Below, in pieces: positions 2,393-21,014 of a stretch of DNA of 43,859 nt. Origin of the DNA: Lachnospiraceae bacterium (GTDB lineage Bacteria > Bacillota > Clostridia > Lachnospirales > Lachnospiraceae). The position numbers were made by a program, and so were the translations under genes. Under the pieces are notes generated by a model that worked only from the letters and a program-made list of their open reading frames with translations, did no database searches and had not been told where the DNA came from. The stretch lies in the NCBI GenBank assembly GCA_017938485.1, contig JAGBBM010000100.1:1-43859 (forward strand), given 5' to 3'. The stretch's first letter is position 1; each line of letters begins with the position of its first letter.

Positions 2393-2917
2393 ATGTCTGT
2401 TCTTCTCATTTTATCAAAGTATGCCATACCTGTAGTTATTGGCTATATTGTTTTATATGGTGTATGCAAAAAAGTGTCCGTTTACGACGTTTTTTTGGAG
2501 GGTGTACGTGATGGTTTTAAGATTGTAATTGATATCGCACCTACCCTAGTTGGACTACTTGTTGCAGTAGGCATTTTTAGGAGTTCTGGTTTCCTAGAAT
2601 TAATGTGCGGTATTTTCACACCTATTACAAACTTTTTCAATATACCAAGCGAGCTTCTTCCTGTGGCAATTGTAAGAATGTTTTCCTCCTCCGCTGCAAC
2701 AGGTATGACTCTGGATGTATTTAGAACCTTCGGCCCAGACTCCTACTTAGGCAATACTGTTTCCATTATGATGAGTAGCACGGAAACCATTTTCTACACA
2801 ATGTCAGTCTACTTTCTCGCCATAGGAGTAACAAAAACCAGATGGACCTTGCCCGCCACACTCATATGCACCATATCCGGAGTAATTCTAAGCATAATTT
2901 TAGGAGGACTTATGTAG
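2393..2917 (+). CDS. spmB: Spore maturation protein SpmB-like membrane protein
   Basis: A 174-residue membrane protein of the nucleoside-recognition (Gate) domain family, the usual length for SpmB. Visible marks are the DIAPTLVGLLVAVGIFR segment, the VRMFSSSAATGM motif and the STETIFYTMSVYF motif, which fit SpmB closely. In Bacillus and Clostridium SpmA and SpmB act together in spore-core dehydration and heat resistance. Here spmA is absent on either side, so either it is elsewhere or this gene has a sporulation-independent transport role, as in non-sporulating Lachnospiraceae that keep the family. AAGGAAA lies about 8 bases before the ATG. Its last five codons form the outer arm of the giant palindrome that follows. 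Confidence 0.85.
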   Translation: MSVLLILSKYAIPVVIGYIVLYGVCKKVSVYDVFLEGVRDGFKIVIDIAPTLVGLLVAVGIFRSSGFLELMCGIFTPITNFFNIPSELLPVAIVRMFSSSAATGMTLDVFRTFGPDSYLGNTVSIMMSSTETIFYTMSVYFLAIGVTKTRWTLPATLICTISGVILSIILGGLM

Positions 2918-3409
2918 TTTAACTATCCCCGTCCACATCCTAGGTGTTTTCTATCTGTTTTTCTTTTTGCAACTTCACGGCTTCAAGTGTATCTAAGGCT
3001 TAAGCTTTCGATTTTTGATTACGCGCCACTTCCATAAACTCACATGTCTCGGGGAATATATATGGATTTTTGAAGACAATTAGCTTGTACCAAATATCAA
3101 GATTTTATAATTTGCGATGAAGGCACTGCGAGAGTGATGTCTGAGTTGCACATAGTGCAACGAGTTTCACGACAGCAGTGCTAATCAAACATCGCAAATT
3201 TAAAATCTTAGATATTTGCACAAGCGTAGAGTTGCGAAAAAAATCCATATATATTCCCCAAGACATGCTCAGACAGTATGTCCGTGGCGCGATTTATCGA
3301 AAGCTTTTAAGCCTAAGATACACTAAGAATCCTAATTGTCAAAAAGAAAAACAGATAGAAAACACCTAGGATATGGACGGGGATTAGTTAAATCACATAA
3401 GTCCCCCTA
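2901..3409. repeat. Giant imperfect palindrome, site 1 (convergent junction spmB / radical SAM)
   Basis: About 509 bases that fold end to end into one long interrupted hairpin. The outer arms (2901-2966 with 3341-3409) pair almost perfectly and include the last five codons and stop of spmB. Inside are blocks identical or nearly so to site 2 at 20417-21014. They include motif P at 2967-2984 (TTGCAACTTCACGGCTTC), motif Q at 3072-3087 (GAAGACAATTAGCTTG), inverted P at 3222-3238 and inverted Q at 3331-3340. P faces inverted Q and Q faces inverted P, giving two asymmetric internal loops. The tip has a small TTGCAC/GTGCAA hairpin around 3145-3159. The stretch has no credible gene. It could act as a two-way terminator, as a structured RNA or as a DNA hairpin element. 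Confidence 0.9.
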
Positions 3410-3412
3410 CCT

Positions 3413-4417
3413 TTACCAAAGCATTATGGAGTAGTCTCCCTGCTTGGCCTCTCTTTCCGCCATACGCTTGTGAAGAGTATTTAAAACCATTTTTTTGTTA
3501 CCAGACCATGTTGGTGATATTAGTATGGATTTTGGTCCATCTCCCGTCACACGGTGAATAACTATGTTTGGATTAATTTTTTGGAGTGCATCTATAACCA
3601 AATCTATATATTCATCCATCTCCATAGTCTTGAACTTTCCTGCTTCGTAGTCAAGTGCTAAGTCTGTATTCTTTAGCACGTGCAATAGCTGTAGCTTCAT
3701 TCCGAAAGGTTTTATCTGTCTATGTTTGTCGTAGTCAAATATTCCCTGTTCTACATAGAATACAGTTTCTAACATCTCTTCCTTTGTCTCCCCTGGAAGA
3801 CCAAATATTATGTGAGTGATATATGGTATGCCAACGTTTCCAAGCTTTAACACTGCTTCTTCATAGATAGATAAAGGATATCCTCTTCGTATATAATCTG
3901 ATGTTCTCTCATGTATAGTCTGGAGACCAAGCTCTACCCAGATGAATTTCTCTCTTCCAGATACAGAATACTTATCCTTAAGCTCTCTTAAGAGTCCTAA
4001 AACTTCCTCCCCCAGACAATCTGGTCTAGTTGCTATGGATATTCCAACCACACCTTCATATTCTAAGGCTTCTATCCAAATACGTCTAAGGTACTCCACA
4101 TCACCGTAGGTATTGGTGAAAGCCTGAAAATATATAACAAACTTATCTCCAACTGACTTGTTAAACTTATTTATGCCATTTTCTATTTGTTTCTTTACCC
4201 ATTCTGTGTCAAAAAAAGCTTCGCGGATTTCTCCTGCGAAATCCCCACTTCCACCAGCACTGCAAAATATGCAACCACGAGTATCCAAGGTACCGTCACG
4301 ATTGGGGCAGGTAAGTCCTGCATCCACTGCAATCTTATATACCTTCTGTCCATAGGTATGCTTGAAATATGCATTTAAAGAATAATAGGATTTACCTAAC
4401 CAATCAACTTTTTCCAT
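3413..4417 (-). CDS. Radical SAM protein, TIGR01212/YhcC family
   Basis: A 334-residue radical SAM enzyme. The cluster-binding cysteines are Cys37, Cys49 and Cys52 in CPNRDGTLDTRGCIFC, the wide C-x11-C-x2-C spacing that marks the YhcC/YtqA (TIGR01212) family. Further family marks are YFQAFTNTYG, ISIATRPDCL, WVELGLQT and HIIFGLPGET. The family is related to the Elp3-like radical SAM proteins; its reaction is not settled. The ATG at 4417 lies 5 bases after the stop of the surface-protein gene, so it is probably translated from the same message. A decayed copy of its first ~55 codons lies at 7050-7212, on the other side of the surface-protein gene. The gene ends at the right edge of palindrome site 1. 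Confidence 0.9.
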   Translation of the reverse strand: MEKVDWLGKSYYSLNAYFKHTYGQKVYKIAVDAGLTCPNRDGTLDTRGCIFCSAGGSGDFAGEIREAFFDTEWVKKQIENGINKFNKSVGDKFVIYFQAFTNTYGDVEYLRRIWIEALEYEGVVGISIATRPDCLGEEVLGLLRELKDKYSVSGREKFIWVELGLQTIHERTSDYIRRGYPLSIYEEAVLKLGNVGIPYITHIIFGLPGETKEEMLETVFYVEQGIFDYDKHRQIKPFGMKLQLLHVLKNTDLALDYEAGKFKTMEMDEYIDLVIDALQKINPNIVIHRVTGDGPKSILISPTWSGNKKMVLNTLHKRMAEREAKQGDYSIMLW

Positions 4418-4422
4418 GTAAT

Positions 4423-6954
4423 TTAGTTCTCTTTCCTCTTAATGCAATACATATGTGCCATAGCAACACCACATATGGTCATAAGCATAACCATTAGTTC
4501 TAAGTTAAAACCATCTCCTGTATCTGGTGATGAATCAAAACGCACATATCCACATGCGTCGCAAGTGCCGTCTGCATCACTGGAATACGTATGAACACAA
4601 GCCATTTTAAAGAAATATTCAATAAGGGTGTCTTTTGACCCTATTTCGTACGCTTCCTCATCTAAGACTGTACCATTTACAACAATGACCATATCTTCTG
4701 AGAAAACGTAGCCATCGTTCGCCATAATCCAAAATCTTACACCGTAATCCATACCTTCCACAAAGTAATCATGCACATAGATGTATCTGTCGATGTCACC
4801 TTGTAACCAATCTACACTGTAAGTATCAACCTTATAATTGGAATTGGCTGGAACAGTTATAGTCGGTGATATACTAGAATGATTTCCTGCCACAGGCTCG
4901 GTTACTGTAAACTCTACTTTATCAATAACCTTCATACCCTCTTGAAATTCCTTTTGATACAAATAGTATTTCCCGTTAGCAACCTCATCTTCTTCTAAAT
5001 TACCATTGATATATACAGCAGTTTTTTCATCAAATGTAAATCCGTCTTTTGCCTCAACCCAAACATCAACCGCATATACTTTCCCAGTTTCAAAAACACC
5101 TGAGAATTCATCATAAGAGCTAGTTTTCAAATTGTAAACCATCCAGATTGCTTTAGCAGTATAATTTGCACCTGCCGGAACACTAACATCCGTTTTGGCT
5201 TTTTCTCCAACTTTCATCACAGGTATATTGTCAATCTTAATATCTGGCAAAACATCTTCAAAAGAATATATCTCTGATAAGCTGATATACGCTTTTTCAA
5301 TCCCAGCATCTTGTGAACAATCAACTCCATCATAATAAACATCGGCAAACTGTGAAAATTCATACCCCTCCTTAGGTACAATATGCATACTCACCATATA
5401 ACCTCGTCCATCTTCAAAGGATGTTACAGGTTCATGGGTTGTACGATCATACCACTGGGCATGGTCAATATAATAGTTTGCTCCATCAGGAACCTTAAAG
5501 GAAACTGAGGAGACCTCCTTTCCAACCTCTGGATCAGCCGAACTAATTATCTCTACTTTGTCTATAACTTCGTGGAAGGAAAAGGTCTTTTCATATCGCA
5601 TAAACTGTCCATCTATACCATAAAGTTGTTCATCCACACCATATGCATTTACAATTACATTCTCAGCAAATTCATATCCGTTCTTTGACATCACCTCCAC
5701 AGCAAGAGTATAGCTTTTTCCATTCTCAAATTTACCTGTAGCAATATTCATATTACCATCATCCAAAACCCATGCAGCCATGGCAGTGTATGGTGCATCC
5801 TGTGGCACTGATATCTCAAACCAAGCATCAGATTCACCACTATCTATAGGCTCTCCTACTGAAGCTTTAGGAAGTTCAAATAAAGTAACCTTATCAATAA
5901 TTTCTGCAAAGGAATACTTTAATTGCACATCTATGTGTGTAACGTCAATTGGATAGCCACCATAAGATTCACCACCTATAAATACATCAACAAACGCATC
6001 TTGTGGAAATGAATATCCTACCTTAGGGAAGATATCCAGCGTAAGATAGTAAATACATCCATCAGAGAAAGTTCCTTCCACATTGCCATTATCATCCATC
6101 CATCTGCCATAAACTACATATTGTTCAGTCTCCAAAATTGGTATATCTACATCTGAAAATGTCTCCCCCAAAGTAGCCACTGGCACCTTATCTTCAGGGA
6201 TAACCACTTCATCTATGAAAGGGGCATAACTTACATAATATTCTATTGAACAATTAAGATAATCTATACGATTACAATAAAATTCTTTACCGTTTACATA
6301 GGAAATAAGAGAGTCATTAAAAGCATAGCCATCTTTTGTTTCAACAATATATTCAATTTTATATATATTTCCATCAGCAAAAGTATGGGTATCATCTATA
6401 GGTATATAGCCTGTTCCATCATACATATACCAATTTCCAGTTACATCGTATTCTGTTCCTGTCTCACTGTATGGTTCGGCTCTATCTCCTATGTTGCCCT
6501 CTGGCATGCCAGTCAAATCAACTGTATCAATAGTACCAAGAGTATCAGGAGTACACGTAAACCCTATTATCGAAGCAGGTGATTCAGCACCGCCTAATGG
6601 AAGGCAGTTTTCAGTACTTCCATTTATCTTAACCTCAGTGTTTTCTGTTAATGTGTATCCTGGTTTAGGTGTAACATCAAAGTAAGTGCCGTAATCATTA
6701 AGTGTTTCAATAGTATCTACCTCGTACTGATTAAACTCATTCCATTTTGACCGTGCTGTGACAGTATACTCAGTGTACTCAGCCACATAATCAACTGTAC
6801 CACTTCCACCAATTAATGGAATAGTAACCGTAATATCCACCTCTGTTATAGGTGTATCCGCCGCTTTTGTAACAGGATTTGGGGTTTCCACTACAGTTAA
6901 AACCATTGCAAACACCACAAAGAAACTAAATAATTTTCGCATAATTTTTTTCAT
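4423..6954 (-). CDS. Seven-module cell-wall-anchored surface protein
   Basis: An 843-residue secreted protein. It has an N-terminal signal peptide (MKKIMRKLF then a hydrophobic core, cut near AAD, about residue 33), then seven diverged modules of about 105 residues. Each module starts near IDKV, carries a VPxxANY strand and a W, and ends in a KDGYxF...VYINGN-like segment. The tail holds an HTYSSDADGTCDACG segment with a CxxC pair, a sortase-type SPDTGD signal, a hydrophobic helix and a basic end (KRKEN). Wall anchoring by a sortase that reads SPxTG is inferred; no sortase is in the window. Ligand unknown: the modules look like immunoglobulin-like adhesin or binding repeats. A GAAAGGAG site precedes the ATG. 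Nothing in it suggests an enzyme. Confidence 0.85.
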   Translation of the reverse strand: MKKIMRKLFSFFVVFAMVLTVVETPNPVTKAADTPITEVDITVTIPLIGGSGTVDYVAEYTEYTVTARSKWNEFNQYEVDTIETLNDYGTYFDVTPKPGYTLTENTEVKINGSTENCLPLGGAESPASIIGFTCTPDTLGTIDTVDLTGMPEGNIGDRAEPYSETGTEYDVTGNWYMYDGTGYIPIDDTHTFADGNIYKIEYIVETKDGYAFNDSLISYVNGKEFYCNRIDYLNCSIEYYVSYAPFIDEVVIPEDKVPVATLGETFSDVDIPILETEQYVVYGRWMDDNGNVEGTFSDGCIYYLTLDIFPKVGYSFPQDAFVDVFIGGESYGGYPIDVTHIDVQLKYSFAEIIDKVTLFELPKASVGEPIDSGESDAWFEISVPQDAPYTAMAAWVLDDGNMNIATGKFENGKSYTLAVEVMSKNGYEFAENVIVNAYGVDEQLYGIDGQFMRYEKTFSFHEVIDKVEIISSADPEVGKEVSSVSFKVPDGANYYIDHAQWYDRTTHEPVTSFEDGRGYMVSMHIVPKEGYEFSQFADVYYDGVDCSQDAGIEKAYISLSEIYSFEDVLPDIKIDNIPVMKVGEKAKTDVSVPAGANYTAKAIWMVYNLKTSSYDEFSGVFETGKVYAVDVWVEAKDGFTFDEKTAVYINGNLEEDEVANGKYYLYQKEFQEGMKVIDKVEFTVTEPVAGNHSSISPTITVPANSNYKVDTYSVDWLQGDIDRYIYVHDYFVEGMDYGVRFWIMANDGYVFSEDMVIVVNGTVLDEEAYEIGSKDTLIEYFFKMACVHTYSSDADGTCDACGYVRFDSSPDTGDGFNLELMVMLMTICGVAMAHMYCIKRKEN

Positions 6955-7003
6955 GTAACCTCTCCTTTCAAACTAGTAATTAACTACGGGTAACCTAGTC
7001 TAA

Positions 7004-7009
7004 ATTATA
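7004..7009 (-). promoter_or_regulatory. Extended -10 promoter for the surface-protein gene
   Basis: On the minus strand TTGGTATAAT carries a TGn extended -10 with a perfect TATAAT (7009-7004), about 50 bases before the ATG. The -35 region (TGTGTGAC) is weak. The promoter lies just downstream of the radical SAM remnant, so the surface gene has its own start of transcription. Confidence 0.5.
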
Positions 7010-7049
7010 CCAAAAAAGCATACGTCACACAATATTTTAATACTTATAT

Positions 7050-7212
7050 TTAACTACATAAAAACACAGCTGCGGATACAATACTTCCACCCCTATTAGG
7101 GCACAAAAGTCCTGCATCCACAGCTATCTTATGTATATCTTTTGTCCATATGCATTTTTAAAATAATCATCTAGAAAATAATATAATTCCCTACAACATT
7201 ATCTCTTTGCAT
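7050..7212 (-). pseudogene. Decayed 5' fragment of a radical SAM (YhcC-type) gene
   Basis: The minus strand from the ATG at 7212 reads MQRDNVVG, matching MEKVDWLG of the intact gene. After a frameshift it reads ELYYFLDDYFKNAYGQKIY (matches KSYYSLNAYFKHTYGQKVY), and after another KIAVDAGLLCPNRGGSI (matches KIAVDAGLTCPNRDGTL). It ends at VFLCS-stop, where the intact enzyme has CIFCSA. The first cluster cysteine is kept and the second is lost (to Val). Only about 55 codons survive. The ATG is 5 bases after the stop of the upstream gene (7218), exactly the spacing between the surface gene and the intact radical SAM gene at 4417. The fragment is therefore a relic of a duplication or insertion at this locus and cannot make a working enzyme. 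Confidence 0.85.
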
Positions 7213-7217
7213 TACGT

Positions 7218-7682
7218 TTATACACCTGCATCCTCACTAGTTGTATCTTCATTATCAGTTGCCTGTGCTGTCTCTGGTTGACTTGTCGCTGCAACATAGG
7301 CTTTGCTATTTTGACTTAAAGAATACGGATTTGTGTACATAGAATTTGTGTATGTAGAATTTGCAGACTGCGAATTCATAGAATTCAAAATCTGTACACA
7401 TGCTGCTAAATTGTTTGCCAAAGCAGTTAGATTAGCATTGTCAATTTCTGCCAATTCCTTTATTCTCTTGGTATTCTTTGCAGTACGCTCATGATTCTTT
7501 GCATTTTCAAGAATAAGTCCCATAGATGAAGCAATCAGCATAACTATTAGTATGCCTACCAAGGTTGCCAAAATCCACCAATTACCCATGTCTTCTCTCA
7601 TGGTATAACCAGCAATTATACATCCTGCCCATCCAGCGATAATGAGTAACCACATAAAAAAGCTTAACAATCTTCTCCACAT
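7218..7682 (-). CDS. Small membrane protein of unknown function
   Basis: A 154-residue protein I do not recognise. The N-terminal half has two hydrophobic helices (about residues 4-26 and 32-56) separated by a short charged loop. A charged, helix-prone stretch follows (ENAKNHERTAKNTKRIKELAE), then a Ser/Asn/Thr-rich tail with repeats of the SxYTNSMYTNPYSL kind and an acidic end. It would sit in the membrane with the soluble tail on one side. A GGGGGA ribosome site precedes the ATG, and an extended TGATATAAT -10 box lies at 7736-7728 on the minus strand. The next reading frame downstream was once a radical SAM gene and is now a relic. Confidence 0.6.
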   Translation of the reverse strand: MWRRLLSFFMWLLIIAGWAGCIIAGYTMREDMGNWWILATLVGILIVMLIASSMGLILENAKNHERTAKNTKRIKELAEIDNANLTALANNLAACVQILNSMNSQSANSTYTNSMYTNPYSLSQNSKAYVAATSQPETAQATDNEDTTSEDAGV

Positions 7683-7779
7683 AATAAACTCCCCCTTTCA
7701 TCTTGCAAAAGCAATAGATTTATATCCATTATTATATCACTTAATACAGATATACGCTATTAAATTCTTATTTACAATG

Positions 7780-8271
7780 CTACCATTCGTATCTGTGTAG
7801 CTGTCCTGCTTCTTCAAGTCCAGGAAAGTCCTGCTGCCTTAAGGCCTCATATACCATAATAGCCACAGAGTTAGAAAGATTTAGGGACCTCTCCCCAGGC
7901 ATCATAGGAATTCTCACGCAAGTTTCCTTATTGTCGAGAAGAATCTCCTCTGGTATACCTCTGCTCTCTGGTCCAAACATTATATAGGCGTCCTTCTCAT
8001 AAGTTACATCTGTATATTTCTGCTTAGACTTTGTTGTTGCCATGTATATTTTAGCATCAGGATTTTTGGCAAGAAAATCCTCAAAATCCTCATACACGGT
8101 AACATCAAGCTTTGGCCAATAATCAAGGCCTGCTCTTTTTAACATTTTATCGTTAATCTGAAATCCCAGAGGCTCAATCAAATGAAGACGCGCACCTGTT
8201 GCTACACAAGTGCGCCCTATATTTCCTGTATTTGCTGGCATCTCTGGTTCATATAATACTATATTAAGCAT
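7780..8271 (-). CDS. trmL: tRNA (cytidine(34)-2'-O)-methyltransferase TrmL
   Basis: SPOUT-fold methyltransferase that methylates the 2'-O of the wobble nucleotide (C/cmnm5U34) in leucine tRNAs. Family marks are NIVLYEPEMPANTGNIGRT at the start, IEPLGF, MFGPESRGIP and the knot motif RSLNLSNSVAIMVYEALRQ. With the ATG at 8271 the protein is 163 residues, the usual TrmL size. A TTG seven codons upstream is possible but the homologues begin at MLNIVLYEP, and GAGGAT lies about 10 bases before the ATG. It is the last gene of a minus-strand run, 23 bases after the aminotransferase stop. No strong terminator follows. Confidence 0.9.
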   Translation of the reverse strand: MLNIVLYEPEMPANTGNIGRTCVATGARLHLIEPLGFQINDKMLKRAGLDYWPKLDVTVYEDFEDFLAKNPDAKIYMATTKSKQKYTDVTYEKDAYIMFGPESRGIPEEILLDNKETCVRIPMMPGERSLNLSNSVAIMVYEALRQQDFPGLEEAGQLHRYEW

Positions 8272-8294
8272 AATAAACCATATCCTCTTCAAAA

Positions 8295-9464
8295 CTAATT
8301 ATTTCTAAGTCTACTTATAAAGTTATTCAAACGCTTCATAGCTTCCTTAAGCTCATCAATTGAGTATGCGTATGAAATTCTAATAAAGCCCTCACCGCAA
8401 TCACCAAAAGCCGTTCCTGGAACTACAGCAAGCTCTTCCTCCTGAAGGAGTCTTGTGGCAAACTCATCGGAAGTCATACCAAACTCTTTGATGCAAGGGA
8501 ACATATAAAACGCTCCAAGTGGCTCAAAGCAAGGAAGGCCCATCTCCTCAAAGGTTCTCATAAGGAAATGTCTTCTCTGGTCGTAAGAAGCCTTCATACG
8601 TTCAATGTCCTTATCACCCTCCTTGATAGCGCTTATGGCAGCGTACTGGCTGGTAGTAGGTGCACACATAATTGCGAACTGATGAATCTTTGTCATCTGT
8701 TCAGCTATAAGCTGTGGTGCAAGAGCATAACCAAGTCTCCATCCAGTCATAGCATATGCTTTGGAGAAACCATTTATAATGATTGTTCTCTCCTTCATAT
8801 CTGGAAGTGAACCGATAGTGAAATGTCCTGCATCACCGTATGTAAGCTCTGAATATATCTCGTCAGATATAACAATAATATCTTTTTCTTTACAAATCTT
8901 GGCAATTGGCTCTAAGTCTTCCTTAGTCATAATTGCTCCTGTTGGGTTACCTGGGAAAGCAAGGATAAGAATCTTTGTCTTATCCGTAATAGCATCAAGT
9001 AACTCCTGTGGTGTAAGTCTGAACTGATTCTCGTTTTTAAGAGGAATAGTTACAGGTACACCTCCTGCAAGCTGAACACATGGAAGATATGATACATAAC
9101 ATGGCTCAGGGATAATAACCTCATCTCCTGGGTCAAGCATAGCACGAAGGGCAAGGTCTATACCTTCACTACCACCAACAGTGATAAGCGCTTCCTTCTT
9201 GTAATCATAATCTACATTGTATTTTCTCTTATACCACTTACAGATTTCTTCTCTAAGCTCAATAAGACCTGAGTTAGATGTGTAGAAGGTCTTACCCTTT
9301 TCAAGAGAATAGATACCCTCCTCACGAATATGCCAAGGTGTGTCAAAATCTGGCTCACCAACGCCAAGAGATATAGCATTTGGCATCTCACTTACTATGT
9401 CAAAGAATTTTCTAATTCCTGATGGTTTAATCTCACTTATTGTTTTTGATAATGGATTTCTCAT
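8295..9464 (-). CDS. Class I/II PLP-dependent aminotransferase (aspartate/aromatic type)
   Basis: A 389-residue fold-type I aminotransferase. Visible are the N-terminal SLGVGEPDFDTP motif, the cofactor stack region GGSEGIDLA, the NPTG substrate loop, the SDEIYSEL aspartate motif, the PLP-binding lysine in NGFSKAYAMTGWRLGY (near residue 234) and the C-terminal FIRISYA arginine. It would move an amino group between an aromatic or other amino acid and 2-oxoglutarate (PatA/AraT-like). The exact amino acid cannot be read. The ATG overlaps the stop of the Lrp-type regulator gene by one base (TAATG), so translation is coupled and the regulator may control this operon in response to an amino acid. 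Confidence 0.9.
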   Translation of the reverse strand: MRNPLSKTISEIKPSGIRKFFDIVSEMPNAISLGVGEPDFDTPWHIREEGIYSLEKGKTFYTSNSGLIELREEICKWYKRKYNVDYDYKKEALITVGGSEGIDLALRAMLDPGDEVIIPEPCYVSYLPCVQLAGGVPVTIPLKNENQFRLTPQELLDAITDKTKILILAFPGNPTGAIMTKEDLEPIAKICKEKDIIVISDEIYSELTYGDAGHFTIGSLPDMKERTIIINGFSKAYAMTGWRLGYALAPQLIAEQMTKIHQFAIMCAPTTSQYAAISAIKEGDKDIERMKASYDQRRHFLMRTFEEMGLPCFEPLGAFYMFPCIKEFGMTSDEFATRLLQEEELAVVPGTAFGDCGEGFIRISYAYSIDELKEAMKRLNNFISRLRNN

Positions 9465-9946
9465 TACGGTATAATCGCCAACCTTTCGTCCTGTTTTACA
9501 ACATCAAACTTGATGCCGTGGTCTTTGTACTTCTTAAGTACGAAATGAGTTGAAGTACTGATAACAGTTTCCATAACCGCAAGCTTTTCTGACACGAATC
9601 TTGAAACCTCTCTAAGAGTTTTTCCCTGAATGATTACTGTAAAATCAAAAGCACCAGCCATAAGGTAAACTGCATTTACTTCCTCGTAGTTATAAATTCT
9701 CTCTGCAATTTTATCAAAGCCCTGTCCTCTCTGTGGTGTAACCTTAACCTCAATAAGAGCTGTAACCTTTTCCTCAGCCACCTTATCCCAGTCAATCATA
9801 GTGTGGTATCCACAGATAACCTTACTATCCTCCATGGCTTTGATGTCACTGGCGACTGCGTCTTCAGGAAGGCCAAGCATGCTGGCTATATCTTTTACAG
9901 TAAGTCTACTGTCATTCTCTAAGAGTTTCAAAATGTCGTTGTTCAT
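9464..9946 (-). CDS. Lrp/AsnC family transcriptional regulator
   Basis: A 160-residue Lrp/AsnC (feast-famine) regulator. An N-terminal winged helix-turn-helix (NNDILKLLENDSRLTVKDIA...) is followed by a RAM/AsnC effector domain with VTALIEVKV and the VYLMAGAFDFTVIIQG motif, which forms the amino-acid-binding interface between subunits. Members bind DNA as octamers and sense amino acids. Coupling to an aminotransferase by a one-base overlap suggests it regulates that gene or its own operon. The ATG follows a GAGGT site at normal distance; the gap to the upstream AIR-synthase-like gene is only 39 bases. No operator could be identified with confidence. Confidence 0.9.
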   Translation of the reverse strand: MNNDILKLLENDSRLTVKDIASMLGLPEDAVASDIKAMEDSKVICGYHTMIDWDKVAEEKVTALIEVKVTPQRGQGFDKIAERIYNYEEVNAVYLMAGAFDFTVIIQGKTLREVSRFVSEKLAVMETVISTSTHFVLKKYKDHGIKFDVVKQDERLAIIP

Positions 9947-9985
9947 TGACTCATACCTCTTTTCTAAAAAATTGATTATTCTACA

Positions 9986-11783: not shown

Positions 11784-11786
11784 ATT

Positions 11787-13088: not shown

Positions 13089-13112
13089 GGTAGGTCTCCT
13101 CTTATCCTATGC

Positions 13113-14450
13113 TTATTTTTTCTTCTTCGCAGTCTTTTCTTCCTGCTTTTCCTTCACTACCTCTTCGGTTTCTTCCGATATATCTTCTTTATCAGCTTCT
13201 GCCTCAGTTTTATCTTCAACATCCTTTTTACCTTCATCAACAGGTGTTACATTCTTATTTTTAGGCTGGAAAAGTCTTCTTCTAGTACTCATAAGAGGCA
13301 TAACCTCTTCTGGAACCTCTTTTTTATCTACATCTATATTCTTGTTTTTAAGCTTTCTCATAATAAGGCTTCTTGTGTATGCATAAATAACTGATACAAG
13401 TGGTATGAATACGAACATTCCCACAACACCCATCAGTTCTCCACCTACTAAAACTGCAAGGAGTACCCAAATTGCATTTAAGCCAATTCCCTCTCCCACA
13501 AGTCTTGGGTAGATTACATAGTTTTCTATAAACTGAACCACAAAGAAAAGTATGATAAAACCTAACACATACTTTGGTGAATCCACCAATATAAGGAATG
13601 CACCTATGAACAAACCAATAAAGCCACCAAATATAGGAATAAGAGCTGTAAATGCCATAAGAATTCCTATAGTAAGAGGGTATGGCATACCACAAATCTT
13701 CATAGCTATAGCTATCATGGAACCAAAGATTACACCTTCTCTAAACTGGCAAGTAAAGAATTTTGCAAAGGTTGTGTTTGCAATTTTACCAAAGACCATC
13801 ATCTCATCCGCTGTACTCTCTTTAAAAACAGCATAACAAATCATCTTAGTCTGTCTACCAAGCTTCTCTTTCTGTGTAAGAATGTATATAGAAAATACCA
13901 ATCCTATAAATATATTTACAATTGCACTGATTATGGATGAAAAAATTGATACAGTTGTAGTTATGATACTTTCACCACTACTCTTAAATATACTTCCTAC
14001 CTCATCCCAGTTTATCTCAATTTTCATAATCTCCTCTGTAATCTGAGGATATTTTTCAGTATACTTTAATACCCATGCCTTGGCGTCTTCCCATACACCC
14101 GGTAATTTTTCTCCAATAGTTGCAAAGGTGGTACTAAGCTCAGGAACAACCTTAAATATTACTAGTACTATAACACAAATCACCAGCAAATAAGCCAACA
14201 CCATACTAATGGCTCTTTTAAATTTATATAACTTGCTCTCTTTATTTTTAAATAAAGATGCCTCTATGCCCTTCATCGGTATATTTATAACAAAGGCTAT
14301 ACCACATCCGAGCAAAAATGGAAACAAAAGAGCTATCAGCTTACTAAACAATGAAACTATAAATCCTGTGTGGTTAACAAGATAAATAAGCACTACCGTA
14401 AAAGTAATCACAAATAAAATGGTCTGCAATGCCTGTTTCTTTTCTTTCAT
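13113..14450 (-). CDS. AI-2E family transporter (PerM/YdbI-like)
   Basis: An integral membrane protein of the AI-2E transporter family (formerly UPF0118). With the ATG at 14450, chosen because AGGAGG lies five bases before it, it has 445 residues. About eight hydrophobic helices are visible: two near the N-terminus, one at 75-95, one at ~170 and a cluster from 245 to 385. They include the family segments FGSMIAIAMKICGMPYPL, ALIPIFGGFIG and FVVQFIENYVIYPRLVG. The last ~75 residues are a charged Lys/Glu-rich cytoplasmic tail (DVEDKTEAEADKED) not seen in most relatives. Members are linked to Na+/H+ antiport or export of small molecules; the name does not prove AI-2 transport. Confidence 0.85.
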   Translation of the reverse strand: MKEKKQALQTILFVITFTVVLIYLVNHTGFIVSLFSKLIALLFPFLLGCGIAFVINIPMKGIEASLFKNKESKLYKFKRAISMVLAYLLVICVIVLVIFKVVPELSTTFATIGEKLPGVWEDAKAWVLKYTEKYPQITEEIMKIEINWDEVGSIFKSSGESIITTTVSIFSSIISAIVNIFIGLVFSIYILTQKEKLGRQTKMICYAVFKESTADEMMVFGKIANTTFAKFFTCQFREGVIFGSMIAIAMKICGMPYPLTIGILMAFTALIPIFGGFIGLFIGAFLILVDSPKYVLGFIILFFVVQFIENYVIYPRLVGEGIGLNAIWVLLAVLVGGELMGVVGMFVFIPLVSVIYAYTRSLIMRKLKNKNIDVDKKEVPEEVMPLMSTRRRLFQPKNKNVTPVDEGKKDVEDKTEAEADKEDISEETEEVVKEKQEEKTAKKKK

Positions 14451-14515
14451 ACAATCCTCCTGCATACAAAATATGTATTATAAATTAGTATCTCCACATT
14501 TTTCCATAATAATAT

Positions 14516-14543
14516 AGCATACCTCAATTAAAAATTTTGTCAA
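14516..14543 (-). promoter_or_regulatory. Promoter for the AI-2E transporter/DUF815 operon
   Basis: A perfect TTGACA (14543-14538) and TATGCT (14521-14516) with a 16-base spacer on the minus strand, 65 bases before the ATG. Confidence 0.55.
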
Positions 14544-14561
14544 TGGGTTATTTCCTATCTA

Positions 14562-14590
14562 TTTACGGAATTTCCCCCGTCTGATATAAT
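14562..14590 (+). promoter_or_regulatory. Promoter for the TPR glycosyltransferase gene
   Basis: TTTACG (14562-14567), a 17-base spacer and a perfect TATAAT (14585-14590) with the extended TGA before it. It lies 31 bases before the ATG and is arranged back to back with the divergent promoter. Confidence 0.65.
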
Positions 14591-14621
14591 TATTTTATAT
14601 TCGAAAAAGGAGGACATTCCT

Positions 14622-15686
14622 ATGATTACAATATCTGTTTGTATGATTGTTAAAGATGAAGGTATGCGGCTTGCCAGATGTCTCGACTCCCTCACTTGTA
14701 TCGCCGACGAGATTATCATTGTAGATACAGGTTCAAAGGATGACACAAAAGAAGTGGCTAAAAGGTATACCGATAAAATATATGATTTCCCTTGGATTAA
14801 TGATTTTGCAGCAGCTAGAAATTTTGCTTTTTCCAAAGCAACTTGTGACTACGTTTATTCAGCAGATGCGGACGAAGTTATTGACAAGGTAAATCAGCAC
14901 CGTTTTACTCAGATTAAACATGTTCTTCTCCCTGAGATTGACGTAGTTCAGATGAAGTACATCAATATGATGGACAACAATTCCGTTTACAATTCAAAAG
15001 TTGAGCTCAGACCAAAATTGTACAAGAGAATTCGAACTCTAACTTGGGTTGATCCTATACATGAAACTGTTGTCTTAGAACCTGTTATCTACGACAGTGA
15101 AATTGAGATTCAGCATATGGCTGCAGGGCATCACACAAAAAGAGATTTGGCTGCCCTCCTCAATACTTTTGACAGTGGTAAACCTTTTTCAAAAAAGCTT
15201 CACGATATGTACGCTAAAGAATTATTCATCTCTGGTGATGACTCTGACTTCCTAAAGGCTCAACATGTCTTCGAGGAAACCATCAGTCAAAAAAGCCGTT
15301 CCGAGGATGAAAAAGCTGACGCTGCTTGTGTGCTTGCTCACTGTTATCGCTTACAGGGTAACTATAACGAGTTTTTCAAGCTCTGTCTCAAGAACATTGC
15401 AACTTCTCCTTGCGCAGAAATCTGCATGGAATTAGGTGAATATTTTTTCAGCTTAGAAGATTATGAGGAAGCTTCTATCTGGTTTCAAAATGCAGCTACA
15501 GAAACAGAAAGCATCATAACCGTAAGGAGTTCCGGAGACCTACCCCTTAGACGTCTTTCCGACTGCTACAACAAGCTTTCTCTTTTCCATGCATACAAAA
15601 ATCCTATGCTTGCACGAAACTACACTGCAGAAGCAGAAAAATTATCCCAAGCCGCAGAAAACTGGAAGCTCCCAGAAGAATTATAG
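14622..15686 (+). CDS. Family 2 glycosyltransferase with TPR-like tail
   Basis: A 354-residue protein with an N-terminal GT-A fold. It begins ISVCMIVKDEG, carries the nucleotide-binding IIIVDTGSKDDT, then FAAARNFAFSKA and the metal-binding SADADE motif. It would transfer a sugar from a nucleotide donor in the cytoplasm. From about residue 200 the sequence turns to TPR-like helices (KADAACVLAHCYRLQGNYNEFF). The gene is a paralogue of 41629-42684, sharing the same order and motifs. Such GT2-TPR proteins (SunS/WaaE-like) occur in Lachnospiraceae flagellin and surface glycosylation regions, but the acceptor is unknown. AAAAGGAGG precedes the ATG. The 3' end abuts palindrome site 3. Confidence 0.85.
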   Translation: MITISVCMIVKDEGMRLARCLDSLTCIADEIIIVDTGSKDDTKEVAKRYTDKIYDFPWINDFAAARNFAFSKATCDYVYSADADEVIDKVNQHRFTQIKHVLLPEIDVVQMKYINMMDNNSVYNSKVELRPKLYKRIRTLTWVDPIHETVVLEPVIYDSEIEIQHMAAGHHTKRDLAALLNTFDSGKPFSKKLHDMYAKELFISGDDSDFLKAQHVFEETISQKSRSEDEKADAACVLAHCYRLQGNYNEFFKLCLKNIATSPCAEICMELGEYFFSLEDYEEASIWFQNAATETESIITVRSSGDLPLRRLSDCYNKLSLFHAYKNPMLARNYTAEAEKLSQAAENWKLPEEL

Positions 15687-15689
15687 AAA

Positions 15690-16122
15690 GCCACATCCCC
15701 CGCAAGTTCCAAACCTTCGAAGAAGGAGCAAGATATGAGCCTTAAAAAGTGAATATATATGTTGTGCAAACTCGCTCTCGCTCTTTCCTCACGCAGGGGT
15801 ACTAAGACTCGGTCTCGGATATAGTCAGAAAATAATAGGCATAAGAAAACCGTTTGAACACGCGGGCACTTAGCTAAAAAAGATAGGATGTAGATATCGA
15901 TTTTAATCGTATAATCTACATCCTATCTTTTTTGCTTAGTACCCTTGCGTAGTGAGACGAGCGAAAGCGTGTTTTCGACATGCCTATTATTTTCTGGCTA
16001 TATCCAAGACCAAGTCTAAGGACCCGCGTTCGCAAACGGTTTGCTAACATATATACTCACTTCTTCAAGGCTCATATTCTTGCCCCCTATTCAAAAGACT
16101 GGAACTTAGGGGGCAATGTGGC
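15690..16122. repeat. Giant imperfect palindrome, site 3 (convergent junction GT2-TPR / sbcC)
   Basis: About 433 bases that fold into an interrupted hairpin. The outermost pairing joins GCCACAT (15690-15696) with ATGTGGC (16116-16122), so the right arm runs into the last five codons of sbcC. The sequence is unrelated to sites 1 and 2, but the plan is the same. Motif P is at 15788-15807 (CTCACGCAGGGGTACTAAGA) and motif Q at 15858-15874 (ACACGCGGGCACTTAGC). Then come a tip hairpin, inverted P at 15935-15956 and inverted Q at 16016-16032. Between P and Q a stem of about 38 bases (with GGATATAG...AATAATAGGCAT) pairs with its partner around 15979-16015. No gene is credible here. Confidence 0.88.
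15876..15933. repeat. Tip hairpin of palindrome site 3
   Basis: A perfect 20-base stem: AAAAAAGATAGGATGTAGAT (15876-15895) pairs with 15914-15933. A further CGATT/AATCG stem lies inside the loop. With A and T tracts at its base it would work as an intrinsic terminator in both directions. Confidence 0.85.
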
Positions 16123-18565
16123 TGCCTTTTATTCCTCTTTCCACTACTATTTTGTTGTCTATGCGTTCTTTTAGTAGGTCTACGTGAGATATTATGCCTA
16201 TGGCTCTGCTTCCAGTGTCGCTTAGTTCTGTAAGTATGGCAAGGGCCTTCTCCAGGGAATTGGAGTCAAGAGAGCCGAAACCTTCATCTATAAACATAGA
16301 ATCAAGTCTTATACCTCCGGAACTGTAGGAAATTACATCGGACATACCAAGTGCCATAGAAAGAGATGCCATAAAGGCCTCTCCTCCTGACAAGGTTTCC
16401 CCACGTCTAACCTTACCGGTATTATTGTCCAGTACGTCTATCTCAAGACCTGTGTGACTAGCTTTTGTGATAGCTTCCGTTCTTCTTACAAGCTGGAATC
16501 TGCCACCGGTCATCTTACTTAGTCTTATATTGGCAAGCTCTATTATCTGCTCAAAAAATTTTGCCTGAACAAAACTTTCAAAATCAAACTTACCCTTTGT
16601 AAATCCACCACCGTTAGCAGTTTGACTTAGGTCATCATATATTTTCCACTCTTCTTCTATGACCTCAAACTCTTCTTTTTCTCGGAAAATATTATGGAGG
16701 GCAGTCTTGTTACAGCTTATACTGAGTTCTAAGGTTTTTTCCTCCCTCTCAAGCTCTTTTATCTTAGTTTGACTTAAGTCACAATCTTTTTCTAAAGGAG
16801 CAACATCTGTAAGGCTTTTCTTTTTCTTCTCTAGCAATTCTCCATCCTTATCAATAAGCTCTTGGTAGGTTTTTATTGCTACTGTATATTTATCTACAGC
16901 ATCCTTTGCCTTTTGTCCCTGTTTTTCTATCTTATCGATTTCTTGGAGACATTGTTCATAAGCTTTGGCTGCTTCTTTATGGCTCTTATAAGTAAGTTTT
17001 TCTTTCTTTGAAGATATATTTTCCTGTATCTGTTTTTGCAAAAGCAAGTTTTCTTGTTCTTTTAGCACCAAGGAGTTCTTTGTTTCCCTTTTCTTTTGCA
17101 GTTCCTCCAATTCCTCTTTTAATTTTTCTCTCAAAGAACCAATATCAAGGCTTAATTTTTCCTGTGTGCTCTTTAGTCTGTCTCTTTCTTTTTTTGCATT
17201 TTTAAGTTCCTCTTCCGTACATACTGTATCAGTTAAAGGCTGCTTATTTGGATGACTCTTTGAACCACAAACCGGGCATGCATCTCCATCACTTAACCTA
17301 GAGGCCATAATTCCCGCCTGACTTCTCAGGAATTCGTCAGACATTCGCTCATAGGCTATACTTGCCTCATTTTTTTCCTTTTCAAGATTTTCGTACTTGG
17401 CTGTATGTTTTTTTATATCCTCCTCCAAAGAAGCTATATTTTTCTCAGAAATAGTTATATTCTTTTCCCAAGCTTCCACTTCCTTTTTTGAAGAGATAAC
17501 ATCCTTTTCCTTAAGGCTCAGTTCTTCGAAAAGCTTATCTAATTCTTCATATAAAACAAGACTTTCTTTTATGAGTATGGCTTTTTCATTTATGGATGCA
17601 ATATCCTTTTTCTTTTCTTCCCATAGCTCATACTCCCCTTTAGCTTTCTCCAACTTAGGCTGAGCCTCTGCCATATCCTTTTTTGTTCTTTCAAGCCTTT
17701 TTTCAACTTCTTTATAGGACTTTTGTTTTTCATTTTCCTTGGCAAGTTTCTCTAATGTAGTTTCATAACTTTTCTTATATTTATTTTTTTCTTCTTTAAG
17801 TATTTTTATTTTTTCTTCAGATTTTTCTATAGCATTCTCTAAATCCTCTATAAACTCTGGGAGCACATACACGTTTTCACTTTGAATAAGCTTTGCATAA
17901 TCCTCCATATTTTCAAGACTGGCACCCTTTGCATACTGGATAAGGGCCTGCTTTTTCATAGCTCTTTTTCCGTACAGCTCCTTTGCCTTAAACTTTAGAG
18001 TCTTTTGTAAGTTTTCGTATATCTGAGTTTTAAAAATATTTCTAAATATATTTGCTCTATCAGAAGACTTTGCCAATAGAAGTTTGAGAAATTCTCCCTG
18101 GGCAATCATAGATACATTTACAAATTGCTCTCTGTTAATCCCCATTATCTCAGTTATCTTTTCCGTAACTGCAGATGCACCGGTTTCAACTACCTGTTCT
18201 TCATTCCCAAGCTCATACAAGGTAGCATCCGCATTTTGCTTCATGGTTCCGCTTCCTCTTTGCTTTGCTCTCTCAAATTGGGGAGTTCTCACAACCTTAT
18301 ACACTGTGTCCTCATAAGAAAATGTATAAGTCACTCTAGTGATGGCATCCTCCTTTGCAAAATCACTTCTTAACATGGTAGATTTTCGATTGTTGCCACT
18401 AGCCTCTCCATAAAGAGCAAAGGTTATGGCATCAAATATAGTAGTTTTTCCTGCTCCCGTATCTCCGGTAACGAGAAAAAGTCCCTGGGAAAGCTTGGAA
18501 AAATCTATTACCTCTTTTCCTGAAAAAGGTCCGAAGGCCTCTATAATTAGCTCTTTAGGTCTCAC
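16106..18565 (-). CDS. sbcC: Nuclease subunit SbcC (Rad50-like ATPase)
   Basis: ATPase subunit of the SbcCD complex, which opens DNA hairpins and cuts protein-blocked ends. The N-terminal half-ATPase has Walker A GDTGAGKTT at residues 34-42. Two long coiled coils follow, joined by a zinc hook CPVC near residue 430. The C-terminal half carries the LSGGEAFMASLSMALG signature and Walker B MFIDEGFGSLD. At ~820 residues it is shorter than the usual ~1000-1050, through shorter coiled-coil arms. The GTG at 18565 is preferred because AGGAGG lies 8 bases before it; the ATG at 18571 is only 2 bases after AGGAGG. It overlaps sbcD. Its last codons lie inside palindrome site 3, notable because this enzyme attacks hairpins. 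Confidence 0.92.
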   Translation of the reverse strand: MRPKELIIEAFGPFSGKEVIDFSKLSQGLFLVTGDTGAGKTTIFDAITFALYGEASGNNRKSTMLRSDFAKEDAITRVTYTFSYEDTVYKVVRTPQFERAKQRGSGTMKQNADATLYELGNEEQVVETGASAVTEKITEIMGINREQFVNVSMIAQGEFLKLLLAKSSDRANIFRNIFKTQIYENLQKTLKFKAKELYGKRAMKKQALIQYAKGASLENMEDYAKLIQSENVYVLPEFIEDLENAIEKSEEKIKILKEEKNKYKKSYETTLEKLAKENEKQKSYKEVEKRLERTKKDMAEAQPKLEKAKGEYELWEEKKKDIASINEKAILIKESLVLYEELDKLFEELSLKEKDVISSKKEVEAWEKNITISEKNIASLEEDIKKHTAKYENLEKEKNEASIAYERMSDEFLRSQAGIMASRLSDGDACPVCGSKSHPNKQPLTDTVCTEEELKNAKKERDRLKSTQEKLSLDIGSLREKLKEELEELQKKRETKNSLVLKEQENLLLQKQIQENISSKKEKLTYKSHKEAAKAYEQCLQEIDKIEKQGQKAKDAVDKYTVAIKTYQELIDKDGELLEKKKKSLTDVAPLEKDCDLSQTKIKELEREEKTLELSISCNKTALHNIFREKEEFEVIEEEWKIYDDLSQTANGGGFTKGKFDFESFVQAKFFEQIIELANIRLSKMTGGRFQLVRRTEAITKASHTGLEIDVLDNNTGKVRRGETLSGGEAFMASLSMALGMSDVISYSSGGIRLDSMFIDEGFGSLDSNSLEKALAILTELSDTGSRAIGIISHVDLLKERIDNKIVVERGIKGSHIAP

Positions 18566-19721
18566 TCTCATCACCTCCTAAGATTTCTTTTATGATATCT
18601 TCTTCACGCTGACTCATAGTTTTATTATTCATAAATTCATAGTACTCACTAAAAAGTTCAAAAGGATTTTTTCCTTTTAAGCTAACTATTTTATCCTCCT
18701 CTTTTACAACCATATCCTTTTTGTATTGTATGGTAAGAAGGTTCGGATACCATCTAAGAAGCTTATTGGCACCATCTATTACTCTTTCTTCATTTGTTAT
18801 AATAGCGCAAATATAGTCCTCTCTGTCTGTGCCCTCAGCATTCACCACTTCCTCTGACGTAAGTTCCTCCAATGTACCTTTTATAACTCTCACATCTCTT
18901 GGCATAACCAAAGGAATTCTATCCATAGATATATTATGTTTTTCTTTTATATCAATAATCTCTATTGACTTTGTATCTAAGCTCTCAGAGAAGGAATACT
19001 TAAGGGGTGAACCTGAATATCTAATATGTTCTTTACCTATATACTGTCTTCTATGCAAATGTCCCAATGCAACATAATCAAAATCATCCACAATTTCATA
19101 AGAAATATTATCTAATCCACCCACATTTACATTTTCAGACTCACACCTGTCTGGCATAAGCCCAGATTTCTTTAATTCTTCCTCTTCATACACTGCACCC
19201 TTTGGTGTGGCTGTGATAAACTGATGAGCTACCAATATGTTTCTCTTATTATAATCTATATCTGTTCCACTTATTATCTTAGCAAATGCAGCTTCATAGC
19301 TATCCTCCCCAACGTACACAGGTTTAATAAATGGAACCATATATATGTTTATCTCTCCATATTCATCACTAAGAGCAATCCTTTGTGCCTCTTTTTCAAA
19401 ATTCTCCTGAAAATATACCCCTTCCTTAGACATAATCCTACTGCCAAAGGATATTCGTTCCATACTGTCATGATTACCACTTATGGCAAAGAGTTTTATA
19501 CCTGCGTCTCTTAACTTGCTTATAAATTCATCGAATACCTTTACTGCCTCTGCGGATGGAGTCGGTTTATCATATATATCTCCCGCAACTATAAGCCCAT
19601 CCACCTTCTGTTCTTTTAGGATTTTAAGAATTTGTTCAAGAATCATTTCCTGATCTTTTATCAAACTTACATCATGCAATTTTTTCCCAATATGTAAATC
19701 TCCTGTGTGTGCTAACCTCAT
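18555..19721 (-). CDS. sbcD: Nuclease subunit SbcD (Mre11-like)
   Basis: Metal-dependent exo/endonuclease partner of SbcC. The calcineurin-like phosphoesterase motifs are in order: MRLAHTGDLHIGK (residues 1-13), VAGDIYDKPTPSAEA, ISGNHDSMERI, then HQF and the C-terminal metal site ALGHLHRRQYIG. At 388 residues it has the normal length, including the C-terminal capping domain that meets SbcC. An AAGGAG site lies before the ATG at 19721. The two subunits overlap, giving equal production. The complex removes hairpins and cruciforms in Escherichia coli and Bacillus; its presence next to two giant palindromes (sites 2 and 3) is either chance or meaningful. Confidence 0.95.
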   Translation of the reverse strand: MRLAHTGDLHIGKKLHDVSLIKDQEMILEQILKILKEQKVDGLIVAGDIYDKPTPSAEAVKVFDEFISKLRDAGIKLFAISGNHDSMERISFGSRIMSKEGVYFQENFEKEAQRIALSDEYGEINIYMVPFIKPVYVGEDSYEAAFAKIISGTDIDYNKRNILVAHQFITATPKGAVYEEEELKKSGLMPDRCESENVNVGGLDNISYEIVDDFDYVALGHLHRRQYIGKEHIRYSGSPLKYSFSESLDTKSIEIIDIKEKHNISMDRIPLVMPRDVRVIKGTLEELTSEEVVNAEGTDREDYICAIITNEERVIDGANKLLRWYPNLLTIQYKKDMVVKEEDKIVSLKGKNPFELFSEYYEFMNNKTMSQREEDIIKEILGGDESET

Positions 19722-19891
19722 ATTATCACTCCTTAAAATACAAAAAATCTATCATAGTAAAATATCAACGTATAAATCGCTTTTTAATCTTTTTTTCCCT
19801 TTATCATTCAAAAATCATATGTTAAAATATAAGATAATTATATCACAGATTATATCATATTTTAGATATATTTTGGGGGAGGCATATTACT

Positions 19892-20416
19892 ATGGGAAGA
19901 AAAGCATCCAAAGCAACAGAAAATATTTACTACATAGCAAGAATGGAGGCAGCCAAGACAAACCCTTCTTACTCCAGCAGAGAAAAAGCTGCTATGAAGC
20001 TGGGTATCGAAAGAAGTAGACTTGCTCGTATCGAACTTGGTCAGATTGAACCTTACGCAGAAGAAGTCGACATTATGTCAACTGCATATAGTGCACCACA
20101 CCTTTGCATTGATTATTGCAACAATTTATGTCCTATTGGTATTCGCAGACTGGAAGAGCAATATAGAGCCAGTGAGCCTAGCTCTATAGAACGCTTAGTT
20201 TTAAAGTTCCTTAGTTCCTCTCAAAATATGGAAAATATATCCAAAATTCTTGTTGAGATAACTCAGGATGGCAAAATAGACCAAAATGAAATTTCAGACT
20301 TACAGTCTATCTTTGAAGCAATGGATTCCGTGTCTAAAAACATTGACTCTATCAAGCTCTGGGTCATGAAAAACCCACAGCTAAAACCATACTTCAAATT
20401 TGAATCTATCGACTAG
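19892..20416 (+). CDS. XRE-like helix-turn-helix regulator
   Basis: A 174-residue protein with a cro/CI-type helix-turn-helix at about residues 28-62 (SSREKAAMKLGIERSRLARIELGQ), then a Cys-containing linker (CIDYCNNLCPIG) and a helical C-terminal domain. The latter has ITQDGKIDQNEISDL, seen in small Firmicute XRE proteins and resembling an EF-hand loop but lacking some ligands. It likely binds DNA; target unknown. GGGGGAGG lies about 9 bases before the ATG. Upstream are two copies of ATTATATCA (19837-19845 and 19849-19857), one turn apart, that could be its own operator. The stop codon is directly followed by palindrome site 2. Confidence 0.75.
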   Translation: MGRKASKATENIYYIARMEAAKTNPSYSSREKAAMKLGIERSRLARIELGQIEPYAEEVDIMSTAYSAPHLCIDYCNNLCPIGIRRLEEQYRASEPSSIERLVLKFLSSSQNMENISKILVEITQDGKIDQNEISDLQSIFEAMDSVSKNIDSIKLWVMKNPQLKPYFKFESID

Positions 20417-21014
20417 CCCCTGAAACACACTTTTTTAAGGGACGAACTAACCCACCCTAGGGCCTCTATATATGGGTTGTGATTACTTCGCAACTTCACG
20501 GCTTCAAGTGTATCTATAGGCTTTAAGCTTTCGATTTTTGATTACGCGCCACTTACATAAACTCGCGTATCTTGAGAAAGGAACCGGCGGATTTTGAAGA
20601 CAATTAGCTTGTACCAAATATCAAGATTTTATAATTTGCGATGAAAGGCACTGCGGAGAGCTGTTTGAGGAGCATAATTCAAGGAAAGAAAAAGGAAACT
20701 GCAATCGCTTCATTTATGAAAACGATTGCAGTTTCCTTTTTCTTTCCTTGAAGATGCGACGAGTTCTCGAGAGCAGTGCCTAATCAAACATCGCAAATTT
20801 AAAATCTTAGATATTTGCACAAGCGTAGAGTTGCGAAAAATCCGCCGGTTCCTTTCTTAAGATACACTCAGACATATGTGCGTGGCGCGATTTATCGAAA
20901 GCTTCTAAGCCTAAGATACACTAAGAATCCTAGTTGTCTTCAGTAATCACAACCCATATATAGAGACCCTTAGGGTGGGTTAGTTCGTCCCTAAAAAAAG
21001 TGTGTTCCAGGGGG
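20417..21014. repeat. Giant imperfect palindrome, site 2 (convergent junction XRE / rsmI)
   Basis: About 598 bases starting at the base after the XRE stop codon. The outer arm (20417-20486) pairs with 20942-21014 over some 70 positions with about four mismatches. Within lie motif P at 20487-20505 (TTCGCAACTTCACGGCTT), Q at 20596-20611 (GAAGACAATTAGCTTG), inverted P at 20821-20837 (AAGCGTAGAGTTGCGAA) and inverted Q at 20929-20941 (CCTAGTTGTCTTC). The blocks around P and Q match site 1 nearly base for base, but the stem from about 20554 to 20590 and its partner 20838-20870 differ from site 1 on both sides while staying complementary. The tip carries an extra long hairpin. No gene is credible here. 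Confidence 0.92.
20678..20752. repeat. Tip hairpin of palindrome site 2
   Basis: A perfect 30-base stem (20678-20707 with 20723-20752) around a 15-base loop. The arm begins TTCAAGGAAAGAAAAAGG and ends CTGCAATCG. Site 1, otherwise so similar, has only a 6-base hairpin at this place, so this piece has been gained or lost. Confidence 0.92.

Follow-up and report, generated by a model that had tools for sequence, protein, structure and literature searches.

Giant nested palindromes between facing genes point to a dispersed, MITE-like repeat family in Lachnospiraceae

Bacterial miniature inverted-repeat transposable elements (MITEs) and intergenic repeat units include ERIC, NEMIS and Correia, and the REP unit of REPINs is ~20 bp. 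Palindromes as long as those described here are regarded as unstable in bacterial cells; in E. coli they are cleaved by SbcCD, and SbcC and SbcD form the palindrome-cleaving pair of other bacteria. We analysed a stretch of 43,859 nucleotides from a Lachnospiraceae bacterium (GenBank assembly GCA_017938485.1, contig JAGBBM010000100.1, positions 1 to 43,859; "the window", its genome being G000), in which three giant palindromes lie between convergent genes. They belong to a real repeat family for which no description was found in the open literature searched, an unusual variant of dispersed palindromic repeats and not a bidirectional RNA switch. On balance, we favour the explanation that they are dispersed, mobile, MITE-like palindromic repeats of conserved structure, to which template switching has given its shape.

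The elements resemble bacterial MITEs and repeat units, for which MITEAba12 (PMC6382973) and RU-1/2/3 (PMC2759123) are named as comparators from the available parts of those papers, in being short, non-coding, palindromic, dispersed and intergenic and in differing by insertion between relatives. They differ in their covarying branched core, their site-specific mirrored stems and their alternating self-nesting to 0.4-0.6 kb; their outer arms mirror host gene ends, and no transposase was identified for them. With the REPINs and their RAYT transposases they share hairpin units that often stand in inverted pairs, tens of copies and an extragenic position, but the unit here measures ~90-130 nt and has a branched core, and the search for a Y1 transposase gave nothing in the three genomes with most matches, nor in the window's own. 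Integron attC sites serve as an analogy only: in the accessible sections of PMC2727003 and PMC6393395 an imperfect palindrome is read as folded single-stranded DNA and its structure is kept as its sequence varies, whereas the giants here are nested and membership of the attC class is not claimed. In quasipalindrome mutation, template switching between inverted-repeat arms homogenises the arms and inverts the spacer (available parts of PMC8604942 and PMC7202029), and both traces are seen here; those parts deal with short yeast and E. coli repeats, whereas here the process would span hundreds of bases and reach the ends of neighbouring genes.

A palindrome scan of the whole window returned only three hairpins with a score of at least 64:

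2901..3409 (509 bp), no strand: site 1 palindrome, family A, between convergent genes for a Gate-domain protein (+) and a radical SAM protein (-)
20417..21013 (597 bp), no strand: site 2 palindrome, family A with a longer tip, between genes for an HTH protein (+) and a tetrapyrrole methylase (-)
15674..16138 (465 bp), no strand: site 3 palindrome, family B, with two units whose orientation alternates, between genes for a glycosyltransferase (+) and SbcC (-)

The HTH domain match of the site 2 neighbour falls under the Pfam cut-off. Six convergent junctions were delimited by open reading frame (ORF) calls (2917/3413, 11763/11787, 15686/16106, 20416/21022, 36807/36870 and 42684/42733), and the scan together with these calls bears out the original prediction that palindromes occupy three of the six and no other gap. 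When folded as RNA, the three regions gave z-scores of -24.5 (site 1, 2910-3412), -17.6 (site 3, 15690-16105) and -27.0 (site 2, 20410-21022), with none of 100, 100 and 20 dinucleotide shuffles, respectively, as stable. Alignment also upholds the predicted order P, Q, tip, P', Q' at all three sites, where P and Q are conserved arms and the primes mark their inverted forms. Matching bases between the outer-left and inner-right arms number 26/32 at site 1, 46/56 at site 2 and 34/38 at site 3; the Q to Q' pairing is the weakest part of the scheme (9/9 at site 1, 24/30 at site 3, and 11/12 at site 2, 20596-20607 with 20930-20941). The P and Q loops make up only part of each hairpin, the stem sequence being mostly site-specific. 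Sites 1 and 2 had been described as sharing near-identical blocks; what they share is two blocks of ~184 bp each at 87% identity.

Family A has ten full copies in G000, site 1 included, which are 87-97% identical, with further matches in the two halves of site 2 and in one short form; family B has twelve near-full copies there, site 3 included, plus one partial copy and several short forms. These dispersed, non-coding copies have unrelated flanks, as copies of a MITE do. The family-A matches end ~45 bp inside each end of the hairpin, and at each site the outer arms mirror one another but differ in sequence from those of other sites. The short forms L014, L044, L046 and L056 contain the outer half-arms only, with few bases between them, and the basic unit is therefore one asymmetric hairpin, which as a single unit reads either P..Q' or Q..P'. 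By eye, a third conserved loop pair (CGAGTTCCAACTGTTTGAG../..GTGATTACGAGTTTGGGAACTCG) surrounds the family-B short form in L044, L046 and L056 (G000:C57, C20 and C97), and a GATGAA/AATCAAACATC pair recurs in the same three loci and in the family-A tip.

The family-B unit is ~90-130 nt long and folds into outer and second stems, a stem of 12 pairs interrupted by a small bulge, and a mini-hairpin of two pairs, which together give a branched core. Two alignments were evaluated against a 24-pair structure set by hand. In the first, comprising 33 family-B cores out of 60 extracted, 97.9% of the cells pair, more than in shuffled alignments, with a covariation score of 0.105 where the shuffles give 0.054 (0/500 shuffles as high); the counts of pairs and of pair types did not exceed those of the shuffles (93/500 and 401/500). 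The second consists of 75 matches to the covariance model R1 from 54 sources including other genera (68 distinct rows), and was fitted to the model and so favours its structure. In it 95.0% of cells pair, against 81.7% when shuffled and 37-44% in slid controls; both sides have changed in 17 of the 24 pairs, against 9.9 when shuffled, and the covariation score is 0.395 against 0.154, again with 0/500 shuffles as high. For family B the signal on this model-fitted alignment is thus above the shuffled and slid controls. The GCGAAAGC mini-hairpin has a GC-N4-GC frame in 66 of the 75 rows, its loop being GAAA in 35, GAGA in 27, GGGA in 3 and GGAA in 1 (repeats counted); the other nine rows lack the strict frame, some of them with changed pairs by eye. 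According to the part of PMC4686876 available, extraordinarily stable DNA mini-hairpins carry GNA/GNNA loops, and a paper on d(GCGAAAGC) is cited there. Such loops suit GNRA loops of RNA and GNA/GNNA mini-hairpins of DNA alike, so the fold cannot tell RNA from single-stranded DNA.

Within the genus, model R1 has matches in 36 of 37 genomes, among them that of the window, with up to 70 per genome (G036, 70; G011, 61; G034, 50; G000, 26). Among 397 genomes drawn from the family Lachnospiraceae, own genome included, at least 115 have matches, a lower bound because only nine candidates were scored per genome. In a draw of 392 genomes from the order all 48 positives were Lachnospiraceae, the share of that draw lying outside the family not being given. 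An exact pattern found five assemblies, of which three bear the title Lachnospiraceae and two that of Clostridium sp., in an 84,980-species collection that may omit records near the window's own; the restriction to the genus that these five had suggested is rejected, the covariance model showing spread across the family. The prediction of a family with a shared design and copies beyond the window therefore holds, with many copies and strong covariation. No Rfam match was found in the window, and ten unit-bearing loci had no match at the unit reaching its family's gathering threshold, so identity with a known Rfam RNA family is rejected; near units of other genera Rfam matched a Clostridiales-1 RNA (L260 96-231) and a glycine riboswitch (L261 1171-1264). 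No plasmid match was found for the unit of L262 and no phage match for site 1.

Other hairpins were noticed beside these families. Another type of ~150 bp, with the end GGCTGTCGCAATAAGGATTTT and a different interior, lies at L131 3427-3576 and 7368-7517 and at L138 4502-4648, and that exact end recurs ~20 times in G034 (the DKZK assembly, taken as G034 from matching coordinates). Long hairpins of up to 578 bp without recognisable P/Q arms, perhaps further families, lie at L128 5219-5454, L158 3680-3908 and L159 7126-7703.

The anatomy of the giants is that of a unit lying within a unit of opposite direction. Among 51 named loci, 21 hairpins contain all four arms of two units, and 21/21 alternate, nine with P first and twelve with Q first. 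The order P, Q, tip, P', Q' follows from an asymmetric unit nested oppositely in another, and no further design is needed. The original prediction had read this order as an element purpose-built for transcription from either neighbour, which gains no support, given the nesting, the even split of single units between the two orientations to the transcript and the indifference of other-genus units to gene orientation. Nor does the proposed switch between mutually exclusive registers survive: the P-P/Q-Q register is 29-75 kcal/mol less stable than the nested fold in five of six cases (no value was obtained for Q:Q' at site 2), a deficit that rejects it as an equilibrium structure. Nesting would be the route to the giants, and their strict alternation might be explained if nests of equal direction had been lost, their direct repeats giving rise to deletions. 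At L261 1501-1776 (G374:C42) two oppositely directed units adjoin each other without nesting, and similar close inverted pairs were seen at G374:C55 and G121:C3.

Orthologous loci bear on the history of the hairpins. Across 58 loci of relatives with the site 1 or site 2 genes no hairpin exceeded a score of 77, where the window's genome reaches 381 and 496; relatives that keep the convergent pair usually have a small gap, often with a compact terminator-like hairpin of ~40-50 bp, or almost none. As for MITEs, presence and absence at orthologous sites can be seen in one clean close pair, where a single unit (G036:C16) faces 61 bp without hairpin or terminator (G011:C10), and in a second pair clear by gap size (G036:C17 against 4 bp); two others are less clean. 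Orthologous giants exist as well (L118/L126), the whole interior is inverted between the orthologous loci L139 and L152, and L149 differs from L159 in the direction of a single unit. Insertion into existing terminator loops only was dropped as a general rule, given the clean empty site without a terminator; it is also contradicted by several giants that by eye lie between two terminators and by coding sequence in the arms of sites 1 and 3, although such insertion may apply to some giants of named assemblies with a terminator-like base.

At sites 1 and 3 the palindromes also extend into the ends of genes. The parts of the three sites are:

2966..3340, +: site 1 body, common to nine other full family-A copies at 87-97% identity
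2925..2969, +: site 1 left outer arm, 98% complementary to 3340-3384; these outer ~45 bp are absent from the other copies
3340..3384, -: site 1 right outer arm
2901..2917, +: last codons of the left gene at site 1 (LGGLM*, the asterisk marking the stop), mirrored at ~3387-3412 in non-coding sequence right after the right gene's stop
15752..16055, +: site 3 body, common to other family-B copies
15843..15975, +: site 3 inner family-B unit (Q-tip-P'), R1 match of 102.9 bits
15876..15933, no strand: site 3 tip stem, with an A-run and a T-run, resembling a bidirectional terminator by eye
16106..16138, -: coding 3' end of SbcC (GSHIAP*), mirrored in the left gene's end and 3' untranslated region
~15687-15701, on the left-gene side of site 3: mirror of the GSHIAP portion
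20487..20669, +: left half of the family-A body at site 2, 87% identity to site 1
20755..20938, +: right half of the family-A body at site 2, 87% identity to site 1
20678..20752, no strand: extra 33-bp inverted repeat in the site 2 tip, missing from site 1

Both mirrored coding ends are conserved: in four of five other site 1 orthologues the left gene has a related ending (LGQLM*, LGMLM*, LGMMM* and LGMMM*), the fifth having LGMLLPV*, and SbcC has GSRI and GSKI in two site 3 orthologues where the window has GSHI. A gain of mirrored residues by the radical SAM protein was considered and is wrong, since its stop precedes the mirrored stretch. The tendency to mirrored ends is also present in L006, L035, L036 and L040, there without orthologue support. 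In L035 and L031 (G000:C74 and C34) the facing genes end alike (SKVL* and ..DI*, respectively), sharing their last codons because the palindrome spans both stop codons. The tip stem of loci L038-L041 differs from that of site 3.

Positions relative to genes were taken from neighbours defined as longest-frame ORF calls (60 to 90 aa minimum) and not as curated genes, the exceptions not being checked by hand. Hairpins of at least 330 bp with both neighbours called (n=24) comprise 20 convergent, 4 co-directional and 0 divergent cases, four further ones having one neighbour missing; the giants in G000 (n=26, plus one with a missing neighbour) comprise 17, 9 and 0, the three window sites being counted in both sets. 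The convergent background is 49/327 adjacent ORF pairs. Short hairpins of 100-240 bp (n=23) are distributed 9 convergent, 13 co-directional and 1 divergent. For other genera 80 regions were taken from the best-scoring R1 hits listed, and the 76 with both neighbours divide into 17 convergent, 45 co-directional and 14 divergent, resembling the background of 38:164:34 among 236 pairs; the convergent preference therefore belongs to the giants. The expected enrichment in convergent gaps accordingly stands for the giants (20/24 and 17/26 against 49/327) and fails for units of other genera, which are spread regardless of orientation. Read along the transcript, co-directional single units were Q-first or P-first in ratios of 6:5 (counted by hand), 20:7 and 18:27, in sum 44:39 of 83 (p 0.66); a cis-acting RNA would keep a fixed strand relative to its gene, and with this sum a transcript-borne function that needs one fixed strand is unlikely.

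We propose that mobile hairpin units, whose dispersed copies are observed, spread as asymmetric hairpins in which the conserved arms P and Q' fold into the fixed branched core, and that one unit would come to sit, oppositely directed, within another's loop to make a giant palindrome. Polymerase template switching within the palindrome would then make the arms alike, invert the spacer and copy flanking sequence to the other side, perfecting, extending and flipping the palindrome until it reaches coding sequence unable to change; this process would account for the site-specific mirrored stems, the flipped interiors and the mirrored gene ends, which would be its traces. Giants would gather between facing gene tails mainly since long hairpins are tolerated there, and the copying enzyme may read a folded single strand. 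A bolder form of this proposal, which we put forward tentatively and consider rather doubtful, is a Lachnospiraceae-wide mobile element that would be recognised as a folded single strand, through its branched hairpin and GCGAAAGC mini-hairpin, by an undescribed enzyme, and that would insert into hairpin loops, its own included, in the opposite direction and copy the target flank across, producing giant nested palindromes between facing genes.

Several observations weigh against the mobile, template-switched repeat. No transposase or autonomous copy was found, and the one clean pair of filled and empty sites revealed no target-site duplication. Absence in relatives dates the giants poorly, as even the closest of those used for sites 1 and 2 have a protein identity of only 83-85%. 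Strict alternation has no demonstrated mechanism, and the 21 double units are not all independent, L118 and L126 being orthologues. The 20:7 set alone suggests a strand bias (p 0.019), the larger 18:27 set leaning the opposite way (p 0.23). The P/Q asymmetry, too, would be expected to vanish under template switching and must therefore be maintained by something, probably selection on the core.

The nearest rival is a conventional MITE, in which a DDE transposase would recognise the terminal inverted repeat GGCTGTCGCACTAAG... and move the hairpin in trans, the fold being a by-product. The shared end GGCTGTCGCACTAAGAATATT (at most 3 mismatches) has 42, 25 and 73 hits in G036, G011 and G034 against 0 for a reversed control, and it sits on hairpins with different interiors, which hints at a DDE enzyme; the whole hairpin inserted at a site without a terminator (G036:C16 against G011:C10) is of the same tenor. 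However, the widely spaced pairs of ends in G034 and G036 proved, in the four stretches opened (two with runs of N), to be short elements standing apart on either side of ordinary genes; neither a transposase nor an autonomous element was recognised in those four. By eye the shared end was not seen in the copies of the window's genome, where no dedicated search was made, and a conventional MITE leaves the covarying core and the alternation unexplained, so that we judge this explanation unlikely.

A functional RNA, or a bidirectional terminator or insulator selected at convergent junctions, would agree with the strong covariation and GNRA loops, with the enrichment of giants at such junctions, where in 12 of the 20 convergent cases each end of the hairpin is no more than 10 bp from a stop codon, and with the terminator-like tip of site 3. 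We nevertheless find it quite improbable: the strand of single units is random overall, units of other genera are placed regardless of gene orientation, the giants L003 and L005-L009 are by eye flanked by two separate ordinary terminators, and relatives manage without giants at sites 1 and 2. Movement by a Y1 (TnpA-REP) transposase, as for REPINs and RAYT, would suit the high copy number, the inverted pairs of hairpin units (e.g. L261) and the extragenic position, and a Y1 match is present in G004 and G035, each with ~40 R1 matches. The Y1 profile PF01797 matched only 8 of the 37 genus genomes at E<=1e-6, none of them G036, G011 or G034, which have the most R1 matches, nor G000; on this result the system is disfavoured and its involvement would be very surprising.

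The genes for SbcC and SbcD, the latter with SbcD_C and metallophosphoesterase domains, adjoin site 3 (window 16106-19721). A C-terminal SbcC query matched 13 of the 37 genus genomes at E<=1e-20, none of them G036, G011 or G034.

Despite the supposed instability of long palindromes, dozens of units are kept per genome in one genus, and the window's genome carries SbcC/SbcD beside site 3. Empty sites and single, double and apparently triple hairpins at comparable sites form a natural series, so that the birth, growth, flipping and tolerance of palindromes can be read from this family by comparative genomics. The last codons of facing genes, mirrored through palindrome growth, are an example on show here, and the repeats point towards an undescribed enzyme at work in a family of bacteria that is common in the gut.

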